IMG/VR virus record: IMGVR_UViG_3300033571_023908
Span: 1-26,348 of that record
Direction: 5' to 3' (one strand)
Length of the DNA: 26,348 nucleotides
Source: a virus
The position numbers and the translations under genes were made by a program. A model generated the notes under the pieces. It had not been told where the DNA came from, ran no database searches, and worked only from the letters and a program-made list of their open reading frames with translations. This document shows positions 6,188-15,225 of this stretch, in pieces. Numbering within the stretch: position 1 is the first letter of the stretch; each line of letters begins with the position of its first letter.

Positions 6188-8023
6188 ATGGCTGAAGTCA
6201 CAGAGCAAATAGTTAGAGAAGCGAAGCCTATTGAGGACATGAAGCTTGCGCTGATGCAGTCAGCGCAAGCGCTCGGTTCACCTACTCTCCCGGCCTATCA
6301 GGTTCAGGGGCTCACCCAAGACCAGTTAGACGCGATGGCCTTGGGCCGCCAAGGCATTGGCGCGTATAAGCCCTATCTCCAGCAAGGCGCCCAGGCAGTT
6401 CAGGCCGGAACGCGCGCCATGGGCGAGGCTGCCGACATCCTGCGCGGGGCCGATACCCGCAATCAATTTGCTGCGGCGCAACAGGCCTACAACAACGCCG
6501 CTGCCCCAGCCGCTGCCCTTGGAAACCTGTCCAATGTTGCAGGGGCGGGCATGGGGTATTTGGCTGGAGCCGGTCAAGACTTTGACTACGCGCAGCAGAT
6601 GGCGCTGGCATCGTCACAGGCAGATCTTGCTCCCGGCCAGCGGATGATGACGGAATCCGTCAATCAGGCCCGGGGAGCGGGGCCCCAGTTTGGCGAGGCG
6701 AAGTCTTACCTGTCTGGCGCTGCTGAACAAGCAGCACTTGCCGCTAACCAGCCCGGATTTGATCAGGGCATAAGGACCCTCGGTGCAGGCGCGGCGCAAG
6801 GCCAAGCTGCCGCCGATCAACCCGGCTTTGGACAGGCCAAAGAGGCCCTTGGAATGGGCATCGGCGCACTCCAGGGCGCGGCACAGGGCTACGATCCTTC
6901 CTCTGCTCAGGGATTCATGAACCCTTACCAGCAGCAAGTTATTGATCAAGCACTGCAGCAGATAAACCGCCAGAAGGACATTCAGCAGCAGAGCCTTCAG
7001 GCGCAGGCCGCTCGCGCTGGCGCTTTCGGCGGCTCTCGGGACGCGATTCAGCGGGCAGAGCTTGAGCGCAGCACTCAGCAGACTCGGAATCAGGCCATTC
7101 TTTCTGCATTGCAGCAGGGCTATGGGTCTGCTCAGCAGCAGGCCCAGCAGGCGTTTGAGCAACAGCAGCAAAGGCAACTGGCCCAGGGGCAGGGCCTGCA
7201 GGGTGCCGCTGGTACGGCAGGCTCCCTTGCGTCTCAGCAAGGCGGCCTTGGTATGCAGGCTGCGGGCCTTACTCAAAACGTGGGTCAGGCAGAGTTGTCC
7301 GCTGCTGGCCAGAAGGGCCAGTTGGGCTTGACTGCCGCAGGTCAAACTGCTCAGGTCGGCTCCCAGCTTGGCTCCATGGAAGCACAACGTGCTAACCAAG
7401 CACTGCAGACCGCTCAGTATGCTGGAAACGTGGGCCAGCAACTGGCTGGCCAAGAACTGCAGCAGGCTCAACTTGGTCAGGGCGCCGCGAGCCTGTATGG
7501 CGGATTGGCTGGCCAACAGGCCGGTCTGGCGGGCCAGCAAGCCAACATCGCAGGGCAGCAGGCCAACATCCTTGGTCAGCAGTCTCAGCTTGAGCAGCAG
7601 CTTGGCCAGGGCATTGGCAATCTGGCTGCGCAGCAGTTCGGTGTCGGCCAGAACCTTGCACAGGGCATTGGCGCTTTGGGCACGCAGTCGGTCAACGCAG
7701 GCTTGCAGCAGGCTCAACTTGGCCAAGCTGCACAGGGCATGGGCCAGCAGGATGTCGCTGCTTTGTCGGCCATTGGGGCCCAGGAGCAGAAGCAGGGGCA
7801 GGCAGAACTCGACGCGCTGCGGGCTACAAAAATGCAAGAGGTCATGCAGCCGTACCAGAAGCTTGCTTTTGTGTCCGACATCTACAAAGGCGCACCATCC
7901 ACGCAGATGGCGGTCACTCAGCAGCAGACTCCCGCGCCCAGTGCATTCCAACAAATCGCGGGCCTGGGCACGGGCATTCTTGGCACTGCCGCCGCCGCGA
8001 ATGCAGTGGGCAAGATTTTCTAA
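6188..8023 (+). CDS. Gln/Ala/Gly-rich virion protein, candidate internal/ejection protein
   Basis: A 611-aa protein extremely rich in Gln, Ala, Gly and Leu and predicted to be mostly helical. The centre has FMNPYQQQVIDQAL (from about 243) and GAFGGSR (278-284), a pair I recognise from conserved structural proteins of podoviruses. A run of four 7-residue repeats with GQQ follows at 439-466. The C-terminal block MQPYQKLAFVSDIYKGAPS is also typical of this group and precedes a Gly/Ala-rich hydrophobic tail. No enzyme motif is seen. It starts three bases after the previous stop. The composition resembles internal core proteins of short-tailed phages that are ejected with the DNA, but no direct homology to T7 gp14-16 is claimed. 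Confidence 0.72.
   Translation: MAEVTEQIVREAKPIEDMKLALMQSAQALGSPTLPAYQVQGLTQDQLDAMALGRQGIGAYKPYLQQGAQAVQAGTRAMGEAADILRGADTRNQFAAAQQAYNNAAAPAAALGNLSNVAGAGMGYLAGAGQDFDYAQQMALASSQADLAPGQRMMTESVNQARGAGPQFGEAKSYLSGAAEQAALAANQPGFDQGIRTLGAGAAQGQAAADQPGFGQAKEALGMGIGALQGAAQGYDPSSAQGFMNPYQQQVIDQALQQINRQKDIQQQSLQAQAARAGAFGGSRDAIQRAELERSTQQTRNQAILSALQQGYGSAQQQAQQAFEQQQQRQLAQGQGLQGAAGTAGSLASQQGGLGMQAAGLTQNVGQAELSAAGQKGQLGLTAAGQTAQVGSQLGSMEAQRANQALQTAQYAGNVGQQLAGQELQQAQLGQGAASLYGGLAGQQAGLAGQQANIAGQQANILGQQSQLEQQLGQGIGNLAAQQFGVGQNLAQGIGALGTQSVNAGLQQAQLGQAAQGMGQQDVAALSAIGAQEQKQGQAELDALRATKMQEVMQPYQKLAFVSDIYKGAPSTQMAVTQQQTPAPSAFQQIAGLGTGILGTAAAANAVGKIF
7502..7585 (+). repeat. four in-frame 21-bp units encoding heptads
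   Basis: Four consecutive 7-codon units read GLAGQQA, GLAGQQA, NIAGQQA and NILGQQS. The DNA units are diverged, so the conserved unit is the protein heptad: hydrophobic at position 2, GQQ at positions 4-6. Confidence 0.85.
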
Positions 8024-8032
8024 GGAAACGCT

Positions 8033-10435
8033 ATGAAGGAAGACATCCTCAAACGCGCCATGTTCTCAATGCCCCTGTCCAAAGAGGCACGTAACTCGGG
8101 CATTCTTTCTGGGTTTGAAGAGGACGACACGGAAGAGGCGCCAGACCCCTCCGAAGAGATGCCTCAGATGGCCAGGAACCCGCAGAATCCGGAGATCCTG
8201 ATGAACACGATGCGGGGCGACATGCGCTCCGTTGACGCTCGGTACATGGAACTGGCTCAGATGGTTGGCGAAGAAGCGGCCATGGAAACGCCCCCGGAAG
8301 TGCTGGCCATGCTGCAGCCCCAGTTTGCGCAGCAAGGCGGCATCGGCGGGCTGCCCCAGGCACAAGGGATGGCACCGCCGCCCATGGCCCAAGGACCCGG
8401 TGGCCCTCCTCAAGGACCCGGCATGCCCCAAGGCCCTGGAATGGCCATGCCTCCCGGCATGGCGGGTGCTCCCCCTTTTCCTGAGGGCGGGGCTGACCAA
8501 GCTCCGCCTACTCCTGACGGCATGCCCCCGCTCAAGGCTTTTGGTGGGGCGTTCGTCACGCCCTTTACCCGGGCGGCGCAATTTACTTCGGACAAGGTCT
8601 CCCCGCTGGCTACTCAGTTCAACGTCGGCGCTGGGCGCCTGATGTCCCAGGGGTTCCCGCAGACATTCAGGCCCATCTTTGAAAACGTCCGTGGCGAAGG
8701 CGGGCGCTTCACGGCAGAGCAGGTGCTGAAGTACCCCACTCTGACTGAGCACTTGTCCAAGCTGGCCGGACCGACCGTGACCGGCCTTGCTCAACGGGCC
8801 ACGGCTCTTGCCGCCCCTGCGGTGGCCACTGGCACAGGCATTCTGGCGGCATCGGGCCTGTACAAAGGGGCCACGGCCCCCGCCCCTGACCCAGAGCGTG
8901 AAGCTCTGGTGCGGCAGTATCAGGACCTGTACTACAAGCTCAACGACCGCAGCATCCCGATGCCGTCCTTGGCCCAGGTTCCCACTGACAAATTGAAGCT
9001 GGATATCCAGGCGATGACCGCCAACCTTCCTCAGCAGGGGGTGGTTGAGGAAGTTGTGGGCCCTGACATCGTTGTCGGTGCGGGTTCTGCTCCTACGGGC
9101 GCAGCGGCAGGAGAGCAGCCTCCTCCTCCTGGCGCAGGGACGGCTGCGGCTACTGCGGGCCAAGACAACGCGGCCTTCATTCAGGGCCAGTTGGCTAGGC
9201 CAAACGTAGCCGCTTCAACTACGGCCACCCCAACGTCTAGGTCTGAGCGCATAAAGGCGGCGCGGGCAGAGTATGCGCCGCTGTACAAGGAACTCCTGGG
9301 CGACGGCAAAGAGGAGATGTACACCAACGCCATGTTGATGCTGGCCGACGCTGGCTTCAAGTACGCTGCTGCTCCTGCCAAGTCAGGCACTACGCCCCTC
9401 TCCTTGTTGGCGCAGGCGGCGCAGGGTGTTCCGCAGGGCTTCATGGCCCTTCTGGCTCAGGCTCGGGACCGTCAAATCAAGGTTGATACGGCGGCACTTA
9501 CGCAGGCCATTACTGACGTTCAGGAGCAGGATAAATACGCTCAGCGTCTCAAAGAGATCATGCTCAAAGGCGACTTTGATTTGCTGAAGGAGCAGATCAG
9601 GAAAACCGGAGACATTCAAGAAGACGGCGGAGCAGGGCTGGTTATAACGAAGACCAAAAACGGTAGCTTCGTGGGCACGAGCATTGCCCCGGACAACCCG
9701 ACAGTGCAGTCTGCCCTGCAAAGTCGCTACACCCTGCGGTCTACGGACAACCCGTTTGTGGTCAACCGGGGCGAAGCTCCGACCACCGTTGAAACCGACA
9801 AGGGAGAGCGGATCAAGCTCACGAATACGCTGCGCTCTTTGGACAACACCCTTTCTACCCTTGATGGGCTGAAGGGCATTTACGCACAGGCATACGGCCC
9901 TGGCGCGTGGTTTCAGGACAAGGTTAACAACCTTTTGGTGCCCATCTCGCCGACGGCGGTTGTCAGGCCCAATCTTGACCTCACTGATGCCGCTTCTCGC
10001 ATCAGTGTCGGCATGAACTCTATCCTCAAGAATATGGCCTCCGCCAACGACGGTGGCCGGGTTGCTGTGCAGGAGCAGGAATGGGCCCGGGAGACGGCCA
10101 GGGGCATCAGCGATCCGACGCGGTTCTTTGCTGACAAGGAGATCGCTGCCAAGCAGTTCAACAGCATGGAAACCATGCTGCGAAATGCCCGACAGCAGGT
10201 GATCACTCAGCTTGGGTACGAGAAGAACGACTACGTGATGAACACCCCTAGCACGGGCACGCAGTCTGACCCCTTCATCATCCCATCCAACCCCGAACAG
10301 CAAAAGCGCATGTTCAACTTCCTTGGCAGTACGATTGGCAAAATCCAAGACCCACGGGCCACGGTCTACCTGCGCATGCCCAACAACACCATCCAAGCAT
10401 TCAATCCGACTCAACTCAGAGGGCTGAATCAGTAA
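8033..10435 (+). CDS. large virion-associated protein with Pro/Gly/Met linker
   Basis: An 800-aa protein of unknown precise role. The N-terminus has the block RNPQNPEILMNTMRGDMRS (from about 47) followed by ARYMELAQMVGEEA, a pattern I recall from proteins encoded next to the preceding two genes in uncultivated podoviruses. Residues about 110-165 are a Gly/Pro/Met/Gln-rich, collagen-like linker. A hydrophobic Ala-rich helix follows (about 255-285), then a second Ala/Pro/Gly linker (about 350-385) and a mainly helical C-terminal half. No catalytic motif was found. The previous stop overlaps the Shine-Dalgarno AAGGAA, and the ATG lies 10 bases on. The stop overlaps the next start by one base (TAATG), so translation is probably coupled. 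Confidence 0.68.
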   Translation: MKEDILKRAMFSMPLSKEARNSGILSGFEEDDTEEAPDPSEEMPQMARNPQNPEILMNTMRGDMRSVDARYMELAQMVGEEAAMETPPEVLAMLQPQFAQQGGIGGLPQAQGMAPPPMAQGPGGPPQGPGMPQGPGMAMPPGMAGAPPFPEGGADQAPPTPDGMPPLKAFGGAFVTPFTRAAQFTSDKVSPLATQFNVGAGRLMSQGFPQTFRPIFENVRGEGGRFTAEQVLKYPTLTEHLSKLAGPTVTGLAQRATALAAPAVATGTGILAASGLYKGATAPAPDPEREALVRQYQDLYYKLNDRSIPMPSLAQVPTDKLKLDIQAMTANLPQQGVVEEVVGPDIVVGAGSAPTGAAAGEQPPPPGAGTAAATAGQDNAAFIQGQLARPNVAASTTATPTSRSERIKAARAEYAPLYKELLGDGKEEMYTNAMLMLADAGFKYAAAPAKSGTTPLSLLAQAAQGVPQGFMALLAQARDRQIKVDTAALTQAITDVQEQDKYAQRLKEIMLKGDFDLLKEQIRKTGDIQEDGGAGLVITKTKNGSFVGTSIAPDNPTVQSALQSRYTLRSTDNPFVVNRGEAPTTVETDKGERIKLTNTLRSLDNTLSTLDGLKGIYAQAYGPGAWFQDKVNNLLVPISPTAVVRPNLDLTDAASRISVGMNSILKNMASANDGGRVAVQEQEWARETARGISDPTRFFADKEIAAKQFNSMETMLRNARQQVITQLGYEKNDYVMNTPSTGTQSDPFIIPSNPEQQKRMFNFLGSTIGKIQDPRATVYLRMPNNTIQAFNPTQLRGLNQ

Positions 10436-13400
10436 TGGCAACGATCCTCAACACCCAGGGGCAACTGGTCGATCTGACGACAGGGCAAGTTGTTGGTCGC
10501 GCCGAGGGCGCCCCGACTGCTGTTGATCCGTTGAAAGCAGGGGCGCCAGAGCAGATCACCGAGGGCGCGGACAAGGTCAAGGGCCTTATCAACAACGCTT
10601 CCTGGGGATTCAACTCTGCGCTTTTCTCTCTGCCTGACGCGGCGCAGCGGGTGATTGGCAGGGGCTTGGGCCTTGATGAGAATCAGGTGTTCCAGTTCGC
10701 CAAGTTCTTCAATCGCGGCGAGGTGGCCCCGAAGAACTCCGGGGAGCGCTACGCCCGGGCAATTGCTGGCGGTGTTGCCGGGGGCCTGCCATTTACTGGC
10801 ATCCTTGGCGCCTCTGCGGCCCTGCGTCCTGCAATCGCTGCCGCTACTCCTGCCACTACGGTGATGCGCGGCGTGACCAAAGATGCGATGGACATGATCG
10901 CAAAGAGCCCGAAGACTGCGCTTGCCATGGATGTGGCTTTTGGCGCTGGTTGGGAGGGGTTGCGTCAGGCTGTTGAAGAGAATGTTTCCGATGATCAACC
11001 GTCCAAAGTATGGCTGAAGGAACTACTGCCGACAGCGGCATTTATTGGCGTCCCCTTGGCCCTGTCTGGCGGCTTTTCCGCAGCGAGCAAGCTCGCCAAG
11101 ATGAGCCCCACCGCGCAGGCTGCAGGCTTTGTCAAAGGTCAACTTGAGGCCCCCGACTTGAGCGGGGTAGAGAAAGAGGTGCTGTCCTCTGCCCCCGGTG
11201 TTTGGAAACTGCCCATAATCAAGGTGGTCCCGAACATGCTGATCAAAAACGCCGAGCGCAAGCTGTCGCAGGTGTTTGGTCCGATTGCAGAGAGCAAGGA
11301 AGCCCAGGAGGCCCTGAAGTCGCTCGAAACGGCCCTCGCCGATCCTCGCTTTGCCCAGGCAGGCTTTGTGTTCGATGCGGCTGAGAAGACGATGTACACG
11401 CCGCTGGTGCAGGAGAAACTCAAGCTATTGGAGCAGCTTGGTCCCAAGGACCTTGAGGCGGTCAAGGAGCGAATCAACTTAAACCAAGCGGCCCTGAACA
11501 GCCTGTTCAGCAATCTTGCCCCGCAGGCCCGCCAGCCCGTGATGGATGCGTTCCAAGCTGCGCAAGCTGATCGTCAGGCGTTCTTTGAGAACCTTGTGCG
11601 CCAGAAGAAGGACATGACGGACGCTGAGATTCTTGCAGTGTCCGAGCGCCTGGGACCACAGAACATCGACATGCTCAACAACGAGCTTCGCGGCGTCATC
11701 ATGAACCGCATGGAGATGGACAACAGGATGCGGCAGAACGTACTGTCGCGCATGGGCCTCAGGCAGGCCACTGCGCCTGATGGCACCCCGCTTCCAACCC
11801 GTGATCAGGGCAAGTCTCTGTTCGATGCTCGGGACATGGAAGGCGCAGCGATGTCGCTGATCTCCAAGTACCGTCCTGAGCGTCCTTCGATGTCGGTGAG
11901 CATGCCTGAGCCTGTGCGCCTGCTCGACAGCTTCGTGCAGAGCCAGATGCGCCAACGCGAGCGGCTTGAGCGCATCTCGCTTCAGAACCTAACCGATGAG
12001 GCCATCGACAGCCAGATTGTTGGCATGGGGGAGGCGTTCAAAGACCCGGCCATCCTCAAGGCGCTTCGCACTTCCGTATACAGCCTTGTTCGCGGAGATA
12101 AACCCAAGGGCGGGCGCCGCGCTCCAGGGCTCGCGGAACTCGCGCCTACCCCCGATGCAAAGGGCAACGTCTCCATCCCTGCCCTGATCCCGGGGCGCAA
12201 GATTGTGATCAATCCGGAGCAGATTCGTCAGGATGCCGCACGCATTGCTGAGGAGAGCACCAAGATTGACATCAACCTGCCCGAGGCACTCGACTATCTG
12301 ACCGCTGCCCAACGGTTCCGCAACGACTCCCTGGCTCAGTACAACGCCGCGATGTCAAAGGGCCGCGTTCGCCAGACTGACGCCCAGCGCATTCTTGATA
12401 CCGGCAATGCTGTGTTCAGGGACGTTGAAAACTTGGTGTTGACCAATGCGCCTCGACTCAAGAGTGAGTACGAGGCGATGAAGGTCATGATCGATGACTA
12501 CAAGCAGACGTATGACCGTACGCTGCCATTGCTCATGTCGCAGACCAAGAAGGGCGGCATGGAGTACTTGCTGCCCAATGAAGACTTGATGCGCAACGCC
12601 TTCAAGACGGCGGAGAACCTGCGCGATGTATCGGCCATCTTGGGCCCTGATGAGCAGTCACAGCGTCTGCTGCTCAACGGCACGATTGACTGGCTGCGCA
12701 CCAAGGGCGTGGTCAACAAAGACGGGATCGTGGACCCCAAGATGATCCGCACGGTGCTCAACAAGAATCGCAATATTGTTGAAGCATTGCCCGAGACGAT
12801 CAGGACAAGGCTCAACGATGAGGTTGCGCTGGCGGATGACTACGTCAAGCGCCTGGGCGAGATAGACAAGCGCGTGGTTTCTGCTCAGGACAACGAGCTT
12901 GATCGAGTGCTGGCCAAGGCAGTTCGTCCTGATGCTGATACACGGGCAGTCATGTCCGATGCACTGCGTGATCCAGCGATCATGCGCAAGCTGGTAGATG
13001 TTGTCGGCAAAGACCAGGAGATGCTGTCGTCTCTGCGCCGGTCTGTATACGACATCGCCACGGAAGGCGCCCAGGGCGGCGGCGCATTGAAGTCGTTCCT
13101 TGATGGCAACGAGAAGTCACTCAAGGTCCTTTTTGACGGCACCACACATCTTCAAGACCTCAAGACCCTGGCTGACTTGCAGCGCAGGGTCAATGCCTTT
13201 TCAAGCGTCACAGGCCAGATCCCTGCCTTCGAATCGCTGGATCAGTCCCTCAAGCGCGTCTTCGGCTTTGGTGTCCAGTTTGGTACGACCACACTGCGCG
13301 AAGCGATGGTGGGCCGTATTTCACCTGAGACAGGCGCCTTGGCTCTGATGGTCAGGATGACGGGCAGCTTGGAAAATGAGCTTTACAAGCGCCTGTTTAC

Positions 13401-13848
13401 CAAAGCCTTGGAGAGCGAAGAATTTGCCAAGAGCATGACCCATATTGCAACCCCGGTGGACGGAAACCGTACGCTCAAGCAGTTGCAGTCCATCGGCGTT
13501 TCAAGGGACATGGTCTTTGGCCCATCGCCCGTGACCGAGGCTGCCCGCAGGGGCATTCAGCAGGGGGTCACAGAGGCGGCTCAGGAAGGCCAGCAGTCCC
13601 CCATTGCAGGGATGGAAGGACTGCCCATTGTTCCACGGGAAACAGCGGCTTCAATGATGCGCCGTCTGCCGCCTGCTCCTCCGACCCGTGGCGTGAGCTT
13701 CAATCCAAGGCTGCCTACTACACCTCCTCCACGACAAGGCGGTGGGTCGAGTCAGGTGCCCCTGATGTATCCTGCCATGTTCCCCAACGATCCGATCAGT
13801 GCCTTGCTTCAGCAACGACAGGCCGCGATCCAAGGACCACAGCAATAA
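10435..13848 (+). CDS. very large helical virion protein, candidate DNA-ejection protein
   Basis: The largest gene in the window, 1137 aa. The N-terminus has two hydrophobic Gly/Ala-rich segments (about 115-150 and 200-225), and a long charged helical body follows. Two related blocks occur about 309 residues apart: KDPAILKALRTSVY (from 536) and RDPAIMRKL followed by LRRSVYDIA (from 845), which suggests an internal duplication. The C-terminus is Pro-rich and ends with VPLMYPAMFPNDPISALLQQ, a conserved-looking capture or assembly tail. No lysozyme or transglycosylase active site was found. Size, position at the end of the large virion genes and membrane-like segments fit a short-tailed-phage internal core protein. 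That function is inference. Its start overlaps the previous stop by one base. Confidence 0.68.
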   Translation: MATILNTQGQLVDLTTGQVVGRAEGAPTAVDPLKAGAPEQITEGADKVKGLINNASWGFNSALFSLPDAAQRVIGRGLGLDENQVFQFAKFFNRGEVAPKNSGERYARAIAGGVAGGLPFTGILGASAALRPAIAAATPATTVMRGVTKDAMDMIAKSPKTALAMDVAFGAGWEGLRQAVEENVSDDQPSKVWLKELLPTAAFIGVPLALSGGFSAASKLAKMSPTAQAAGFVKGQLEAPDLSGVEKEVLSSAPGVWKLPIIKVVPNMLIKNAERKLSQVFGPIAESKEAQEALKSLETALADPRFAQAGFVFDAAEKTMYTPLVQEKLKLLEQLGPKDLEAVKERINLNQAALNSLFSNLAPQARQPVMDAFQAAQADRQAFFENLVRQKKDMTDAEILAVSERLGPQNIDMLNNELRGVIMNRMEMDNRMRQNVLSRMGLRQATAPDGTPLPTRDQGKSLFDARDMEGAAMSLISKYRPERPSMSVSMPEPVRLLDSFVQSQMRQRERLERISLQNLTDEAIDSQIVGMGEAFKDPAILKALRTSVYSLVRGDKPKGGRRAPGLAELAPTPDAKGNVSIPALIPGRKIVINPEQIRQDAARIAEESTKIDINLPEALDYLTAAQRFRNDSLAQYNAAMSKGRVRQTDAQRILDTGNAVFRDVENLVLTNAPRLKSEYEAMKVMIDDYKQTYDRTLPLLMSQTKKGGMEYLLPNEDLMRNAFKTAENLRDVSAILGPDEQSQRLLLNGTIDWLRTKGVVNKDGIVDPKMIRTVLNKNRNIVEALPETIRTRLNDEVALADDYVKRLGEIDKRVVSAQDNELDRVLAKAVRPDADTRAVMSDALRDPAIMRKLVDVVGKDQEMLSSLRRSVYDIATEGAQGGGALKSFLDGNEKSLKVLFDGTTHLQDLKTLADLQRRVNAFSSVTGQIPAFESLDQSLKRVFGFGVQFGTTTLREAMVGRISPETGALALMVRMTGSLENELYKRLFTKALESEEFAKSMTHIATPVDGNRTLKQLQSIGVSRDMVFGPSPVTEAARRGIQQGVTEAAQEGQQSPIAGMEGLPIVPRETAASMMRRLPPAPPTRGVSFNPRLPTTPPPRQGGGSSQVPLMYPAMFPNDPISALLQQRQAAIQGPQQ

Positions 13849-13859
13849 CGGAGTAAATC

Positions 13860-14234
13860 ATGGAGATGGTTGGACGCTTAATCGGCACGATGTTCCTGGC
13901 CCGGGAGTACGCTCACCGGGCCCACTTGCGTGTCACGGGCCCGGGCAGCTTTGCCAAGCATTCAGCGCTGGGCGAGTTCTACACGGCCATCATTGATCAG
14001 GCAGACGGGATCACCGAGGCGTATCAGGGACGCCACGACACCATCATCGAGATTCCGTACCTGCCGATGATCGATGAGGAAGACCCGGCCAAGGCCCTTG
14101 AGAGCCTGATGGATGACATCGAGAAGCTGCGTTATGACGCAGTGGACAAGAAGGACGCTCCGATTCAAAATCTGATTGACGGGGCCATTGAGACGTTTTT
14201 GAGCACCCTCTACAAACTCCGAAAGCTGAGGTAA
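13860..14234 (+). CDS. small Dps/ferritin-like protein (DUF5856-like)
   Basis: A 124-aa all-helical protein. His22, His34, Asp49 and Glu53 have the spacing H-x11-H-x14-D-x3-E of the Dps ferroxidase centre (E. coli Dps His51, His63, Asp78, Glu82), and surrounding residues fit a Dps-type helix pair (SFAKHSALGEFYTAIIDQAD). The fifth Dps ligand (E. coli Asp67) falls on Gly38, with Glu39 beside it. Phage proteins of this size with an H...HxALGEFY pattern are, as I recall, grouped as DUF5856 and judged ferritin-like. Dps itself is about 160 aa, so this is a reduced version without extended DNA-binding tails. It has a Shine-Dalgarno CGGAGT and sits between virion genes, so it could be packaged or act late. 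Iron oxidation, DNA protection or a purely structural role are all open. Confidence 0.72.
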   Translation: MEMVGRLIGTMFLAREYAHRAHLRVTGPGSFAKHSALGEFYTAIIDQADGITEAYQGRHDTIIEIPYLPMIDEEDPAKALESLMDDIEKLRYDAVDKKDAPIQNLIDGAIETFLSTLYKLRKLR

Positions 14235-14238
14235 GAAA

Positions 14239-15225
14239 ATGCCTTTTATGCGTAGACGTTCTCCTGCCCCGGTAGCGGCTCCGGCCCCAGTGGCAGCCCC
14301 AATAACCACCATGCCTGCGGTGCCTCCCCCTACTATGGCACCGGCTCCGGCTATGGGCACGCCAAACCTGAACGATGCCATCAACCAACTTAAAGGCGGA
14401 AATCGACAAAGCGCCGAGGGCATGATGCGCCAGATTGTTGGCCTGCCCCCGCTTTCCCGTGCTCCCTCGGTGCCTCAGCCCGGGCGCCCCGTGTTGCCCC
14501 CGGGGCTACAGCCCGGCCAACCGGGGATTCGCCCGCCCGTGTTGCCCCCGGGTCTTCAGCCGTCGCCATTCCCTCTCCCTGGGATGCGCCCGGGCAGCGG
14601 GCCGTTGCCCCCCAGCCCTCAAGAAAGCCTACTAATCAACTCGATGGTGCAGCCTGGATTCAACAACCAGGGGCAACAGATGGCGCCGTTTGGTGGGCCC
14701 CAGCCGATGATGAACCCACAGTCCAGTGACGCATTAAAGCAGCAGTTCTTGGCGCAGCAGGCAGCGCAGCAGTTCGGCCCCCAGCCGATGATGAACCCAC
14801 AGTCCAGTGACGCATTCAAACAGCAGTTCTTGGCGCAGCAGCCCGGTCAGATGGCGATGGGCCCGATGTCCATGGGCATGCCGCAGTTCCAGCAGCCTGG
14901 TCAGATGGGCCCGCAGCCGATGGTGAACCCGCAATCCAATGATGCGTTGAAGCAGCAGTTCTTGGCGCAGCAGGGGATTAACCAGCCAATGCCTTCATAT
15001 CAGAACCCGGCGCAGCAGGGAAGGCTGATGGAGCAGATGGCAAAACAGGCCCAGCAGCAGCCTATGGGGCAGTTCCAGCAGCAGCCTATGGGGCAGTTCC
15101 AGCAGAACAACGCCCAGCAAATGTCAAACTTCCAAAACCAGAACCAAAGCAACCAGAACCAGGGTAACCAGTTCGGGGGCGGCGGGAACAGGAGCGGTGG
15201 CGGTGGTGGCGGTGGACTTTTCTAG
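14239..15225 (+). CDS. Pro/Gln/Met-rich repeat protein of the late block
   Basis: A 328-aa low-complexity protein. It has an Ala/Pro-rich N-terminus (1-45), a short helical patch (about 43-68, NLNDAINQLKGG and EGMMRQIVGLPPL), a Pro-rich part with RPVLPPGLQP-type repeats (about 75-120) and three copies of a 20-residue unit beginning QPM(M/V)NPQS and ending FLAQQ. A double QQQPMGQF follows, then an Asn/Gln-rich stretch and a Gly-rich tail ending in LF. No globular domain or catalytic motif is seen. The product is probably largely disordered. The position suggests a virion-associated or assembly role; I do not recognise a named family. The start is an ATG four bases after the previous stop, with AGGTAAG upstream. 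Confidence 0.7.
   Translation: MPFMRRRSPAPVAAPAPVAAPITTMPAVPPPTMAPAPAMGTPNLNDAINQLKGGNRQSAEGMMRQIVGLPPLSRAPSVPQPGRPVLPPGLQPGQPGIRPPVLPPGLQPSPFPLPGMRPGSGPLPPSPQESLLINSMVQPGFNNQGQQMAPFGGPQPMMNPQSSDALKQQFLAQQAAQQFGPQPMMNPQSSDAFKQQFLAQQPGQMAMGPMSMGMPQFQQPGQMGPQPMVNPQSNDALKQQFLAQQGINQPMPSYQNPAQQGRLMEQMAKQAQQQPMGQFQQQPMGQFQQNNAQQMSNFQNQNQSNQNQGNQFGGGGNRSGGGGGGGLF
14701..14973 (+). repeat. three 60-bp direct repeats inside the Pro/Gln-rich gene
   Basis: Near-identical units lie at 14701-14760, 14782-14841 and 14914-14973. Units 1 and 2 differ by about three bases; unit 3 is more diverged, largely at third codon positions. All are in frame and 60 bases long, so they duplicate a 20-residue module (QPM(M/V)NPQS...FLAQQ). 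Confidence 0.92.
15052..15099 (+). repeat. 24-bp exact tandem repeat
   Basis: Two identical adjacent 24-base units at 15052-15075 and 15076-15099 encode QQQPMGQF twice. Confidence 0.92.

Follow-up and report, generated by a model that had tools for sequence, protein, structure and literature searches.

A short Dps-like protein of phage family DUF5856 with four invariant metal-ligand positions, encoded in the late gene block of a virus

Dps proteins are well described in bacteria (E. coli Dps, L. innocua Dps and B. subtilis MrgA), where they measure about 145 to 170 aa. A basic terminal tail serves DNA binding in E. coli Dps and is not present in all Dps proteins. Distant homologues of the protein studied here have been detected in phage particles: LIMEstone1 ORF78 was identified in virions by mass spectrometry (3 peptides, giving 28% coverage; PMC3296691, Table 2), and Sajous1 gp217, for which CsCl-purified particles yielded 10 spectra, was assigned to 'Ferritin' by Phyre2 with a confidence of 96.7 and was published as a 'ferritin' (PMC10892097). 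Thus, a ferritin-like virion protein of phages is already on record. Another relative, T4 rI.-1 (mobD.6), sits in the rI operon and has been given a weak role in lysis inhibition, its overexpression having slightly prolonged lysis inhibition according to a review's summary (Golec et al. 2010, via PMC6832632). The term DUF5856, the Pfam name of the family concerned here, was not found in the literature searched, nor were enzymatic data or functional tests of the ligand set for any family member. PMC8008677 discusses phage DPS and, in the passages covered, does not name the DUF5856/PHROG_858 family.

The window that we analysed is a whole virus record of 26,348 bases, in which the original prediction had singled out a 'mini-Dps' encoded among virion genes (Table 1). 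A GGAG lies a few bases 5' of the ATG of this gene, which is under strong purifying selection (dN/dS of about 0.04 in comparison with the 95% identical relatives L001 and L002). The protein matched Pfam DUF5856 (PF19174) with an E value of 4e-12 and 47.5 bits, the gathering cut-off being 34.6, and PHROG_858 with an E value of 1.8e-17 over residues 3 to 123. This family is present in at least 1,469 phage records, T4 rI.-1 included, and its members share length, fold and four ligands with the window protein. The window gene adds a member to a large, already annotated and poorly understood phage family and is not a one-off. PHROG_858 bears the label 'starvation-inducible transcriptional regulator', probably a misnomer that goes back to the naming of Dps; many phage records carry it. 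We also observed an 87% identical homologue (L131, JAURFH010000016.1) on a contig of 36 kb assigned to a Verrucomicrobiota MAG, possibly a hint of the host or possibly a mis-binned phage.

Table 1. Features of the mini-Dps gene and its immediate surroundings in the window.
Feature	Position	Strand	Remarks or basis
1137 aa late ORF, directly upstream	10435..13848	+	Neighbour conserved within the window's clade; assigned to no named family
Gap of 11 bases between the 1137 aa ORF and mini-Dps	13849..13859	+	Contains GGAG ribosome-binding-like motif
mini-Dps gene (DUF5856 / PHROG_858)	13860..14234	+	124 aa, open ORF, ATG start
His19, 3 residues ahead of His22	13914..13916	+	Near-invariant, Lys in VR7 and LAh_6; sequence and alignments
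His22, at Dps His51 ligand position	13923..13925	+	Invariant; HMM alignment and family alignments
His34, at Dps His63 ligand position	13959..13961	+	Invariant; HMM alignment and family alignments
Gly38, at Dps Asp67 position	13971..13973	+	Asp/Glu in T4-like and jumbo relatives; HMM and family alignments
Asp49, at Dps Asp78 ligand position	14004..14006	+	Invariant; HMM alignment and family alignments
Glu53, at Dps Glu82 ligand position	14016..14018	+	Invariant; HMM alignment and family alignments
328 aa Pro/Gln-rich repetitive ORF, directly downstream	14239..15225	+	Downstream position recognised only in close relative L002

The putative metal ligands were then compared with those of Dps. It had been claimed that H22, H34, D49 and E53 match Dps H51, H63, D78 and E82, and the spacing of 12-15-4 was indeed exact. 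In an HMM-HMM alignment with bacterial Dps from unrelated genomes, these four residues and G38 fell on the Dps positions listed in Table 1, with the A-B loop ungapped. The pattern H-x11-H-x14-D-x3-E arose in 109 of 200,000 residue shuffles of the mini-Dps protein. The four residues were present in all 100 of the 100 full-length family sequences, and they formed the only invariant columns among 22 diverse representatives, some of them with as little as about 20% identity, drawn from the window's clade, P22-like podophages, Caulobacter phages, Ackermannviridae, Straboviridae and jumbo phages. An independent 20-row alignment retained as invariant only the four ligands and Y118. This conservation is stronger evidence than motif shuffling.

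The fifth Dps ligand, Asp67, is absent from mini-Dps, and the original prediction was correct in placing Gly at this position (38) with Glu beside it (39). Position 38 is Asp in T4 rI.-1 (RB59), VR7, CC2, Serratia BF, MW202828 and LAh_6, Glu in RB43, ZHF and PSTCR6, and Gly, Gln, Arg or Asn elsewhere in the family, so that a carboxylate is confined to T4-like, jumbo and some other members. This distribution implies that some relatives have the full five-ligand set and that one ligand was lost in the window's clade. We rejected Glu39 as a stand-in for Asp67, since position 39 is unconstrained (E, K, T, S, D, N, G, Y or F in the family). The proposal of an 'almost complete ferroxidase ligand set' thus stands for the four predicted ligands, which are invariant, but not for the adjacent Glu39 as a conserved substitute. 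In contrast to the rest of DUF5856/PHROG_858, the window's clade combines the Gly at the Asp67 position with an A-B loop longer by 3 residues, which restores the Dps His-His spacing of 12; this spacing is a trait of the clade, most family members having 9 as they lack 3 residues (TGPG loop). The longer loop with its Dps-like spacing was observed in L001-L037 and L039, compared with most of L071-L130.

In a further step, the fold was examined. Structure prediction, which had been proposed as a check for a four-helix bundle, returned a confident one for the AlphaFold2 monomer (pLDDT 94.8; helices 3-24, 31-59, 76-94 and 100-122), and a relative from the portal-adjacent clade (clade-2) was modelled with the same four helices (pLDDT 93.7). 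The best 50 Foldseek matches of the window model in the PDB were all Dps or Dps-like, with TMq values mostly of 0.6 to 0.77; none had an E value below 0.001, as expected because the bundle is short. Matches of the portal-adjacent relative in the PDB were mostly Dps, with some bacterioferritins. Giant-virus proteins of 115 to 129 aa also matched the mini-Dps model with a TMq of 0.76 (A0A481ZC29 of Pithovirus LCPAC404 and A0A7D3V608 of Fadolivirus).

Single-sequence phmmer searches of the PDB gave weak Dps matches mixed with low-complexity protein A repeats, and profiles were therefore needed. A profile of 20 diverse members, among them a bridging sequence described below and jumbo or T4-like proteins, matched Dps chains in the PDB with an E value of 4e-9. 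After removal of the bridge and of the three most divergent other members, Dps still ranked first (E value 1e-4). With hhalign, the score to bacterial Dps was 31.9, compared with at most 19.6 among 100 column shuffles, 16.6 for ferritin/bacterioferritin and 11.9 for reversed Dps, all three of which lay at background. Masking of the four ligand columns reduced the score to background (15.9), indicating that most of the residual sequence similarity to Dps comes from the metal site. The comparison of folds provides evidence that is for the most part independent of this ligand-site similarity. The bacterial Dps comparison set was taken from weaker-scoring ferritin loci; none of the proteins at the 34 top-ranked loci carried the Dps ligand motif.

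The bridging sequence is QDH46540 of Aeromonas phage LAh_6, which matched Pfam Ferritin (7e-10), DUF5856 (7e-5) and Dps in the PDB (2e-10), as well as PHROG_3636 and PHROG_858. By these profile matches, it is a bridge between DUF5856 and true Dps. It differs from the window protein in being 156 aa long and nearer to classical Dps, with an HWN...GP motif and Asp at position 38. Pfam Ferritin (PF00210) did not match the window protein or the rest of the window record; a relative in L076 reached an E value of 5e-4, below the cut-off, whereas LAh_6 passed. The name 'mini-Dps' was thus borne out by fold, profile, bridge sequence and ligand invariance, and mini-Dps is almost certainly a homologue of Dps, by descent or by common origin. 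It has helix order, ligand register, profile and fold in common with the bacterial proteins but is shorter and lacks an N-terminal tail, a BC helix (in the model) and Asp67, and Trp52 is replaced by Leu.

Given that fold and ligands resemble Dps, the protein could be a genuine nucleoid protein of the Dps type, coating the DNA of the phage or of its host. However, helix A begins at residue 3 in the AlphaFold2 model, leaving no basic N-terminal extension, and the pI is 5.1, most DUF5856 members among the 22 representatives being acidic too. Because of the missing basic tail and the acidic pI, we consider DNA coating highly improbable, and the Dps-style DNA-binding role suggested originally found no support.

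We then investigated the gene neighbourhood. The location 'among virion genes' held insofar as the late genes upstream include ORFs of 731 and 465 aa with PHROG virion structural assignments, together with an endolysin, but the immediate neighbours (1137 and 328 aa) had no family match. The 328 aa ORF is also rich in Asn, with internal repeats of the FGPQPMMNPQSSDALKQQFLAQQ type, and the late block contains a further repetitive ORF of 611 aa (6188-8023), rich in Gln, Ala and Gly and with no family match. In close relatives, mini-Dps follows the 1137 aa gene by 7 to 18 bases, with an 800 aa gene ahead of that. In a second group, the P22-like relatives, the gene overlaps or abuts the P22-type portal gene, between the terminase and major capsid genes. 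In the Ackermannviridae the gene is found close to that for DNA primase, within or adjoining a structural gene group and not beside portal, and in T4-like phages it belongs to the rI operon, away from virion genes.

The tight coupling to the portal gene or, in the window's clade, to a large late gene would suit a Dps-derived structural protein of virion or assembly, aiding portal or internal-protein assembly, in which a metal would be structural or missing and no ferroxidase role would remain. The detection of two homologues in virions and the loss of Asp67 in many members point the same way, as does a weak match of the window protein to PHROG_1752, a head maturation protease (E value 0.085). 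Structural matches also included several proteins of 333 to 763 aa annotated as prohead protease (BFVD A0A6J7WPK9, A0A6J7XDU5 and A0A6J7WIS1), which suggests that Dps-like bundles are fused to head maturation proteases and was likewise counted in favour of a structural role. Nevertheless, such a role would not obviously preserve exactly four catalytic ligands as sole invariants over about 20% identity, and T4-like members do not adjoin virion genes. We thus regard a purely structural role as rather unlikely.

The two virion-detected homologues, Sajous1 gp217 (Kuttervirus; MW021757.1, 117 aa, DUF5856 E value 1e-28) and LIMEstone1 ORF78 (Limestonevirus), share 32% and between 32 and 34% identity, respectively, with the window protein, have the same ligands and carry Gly38/Glu39 as in the window. 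Both phages are contractile-tailed Ackermannviridae, in which the gene is near DNA primase and not beside portal or ejection-type genes. These two detections in purified virions make the suggested virion component plausible, but the homologues are distant and come from another phage family; by analogy with them, mini-Dps may equally well be virion-associated or not in the window's phage. For Sajous1 gp217, an iron-loaded tail component that baits host iron-uptake receptors, a 'Ferrojan horse', has been proposed (PMC10892097). The same study found similar infection efficiency in TonB- and FeoB-deficient Salmonella, a tail position received no support in our analysis, and the gene abuts portal in P22-like relatives, all of which make tail-borne iron baiting very improbable for mini-Dps.

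A different setting is provided by T4 rI.-1, found in RB59 (Tequatrovirus T4) at L169:4944-5330 and matching PHROG_858 with an E value of 9e-55. It has all four ligands and differs from the window protein by Asp at position 38, which completes the five-ligand Dps set (H, H, D, D, E). The membership of T4 rI.-1 with a complete set is a contribution of this analysis, as is the observation that the four Dps ligands are the sole invariant residues of the family. Its place in the rI operon and the reported overexpression phenotype raise the alternative of a regulator of lysis timing or of another intracellular process; the metal site would then serve for redox sensing. The T4 effects, as the review summarizes them, are slight and derive from overexpression. 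Moreover, jumbo phage RaK2 has an rI.-1 relative and no recognised T holin or RI (PMC3622015), and the window gene lies in a late virion block with no recognised lysis regulator adjoining. Lysis regulation is thus an improbable function for mini-Dps.

With a four-helix Dps-like fold, homology, ligand invariance and a late-operon position obtained by computation, we favour, with somewhat more confidence than doubt, a shortened Dps-type mini-ferritin with intersubunit metal sites that handles iron, is made late and is probably packaged. Two subunits would pair as in Dps, so that two metal sites arise between them, each from H22/H34 of one and D49'/E53' of the other; by this analogy, a working intersubunit site is likely. 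Fe(II) would bind at the predicted sites, and a reaction there with peroxide or oxygen is probable. With the Asp67 carboxylate lost, the second iron site may be weaker, and the centre nearer to a one-metal or slower one. The protein would act as a Dps-derived dimer or small oligomer with iron, or a different metal, held between its subunits; it would be produced late and would probably be carried by the virion in low to moderate copy number. Such iron handling could limit Fenton damage to phage DNA or proteins, late in infection or in the particle. That iron or peroxide protection is the selected function is plausible but falls somewhat short of an even chance. We extend the reading only tentatively to the whole DUF5856/rI.-1 family, whose members might, though this is less probable still, be phage-specific mini-ferritins, virion-packaged or late-acting, with a reduced H2DE site (Asp67 being kept in T4-like phages and lost elsewhere) and with iron or peroxide handling that protects the packaged genome.

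If the metal site works, T4 rI.-1 and its relatives in at least 1,469 phages would become testable handlers of iron or peroxide, possibly particle-borne, and the question of the metal site can be addressed in T4, a standard laboratory system. If true, the reading would connect the phage particle with iron chemistry and with survival under oxidative stress, and the 'transcriptional regulator' label would need correction.
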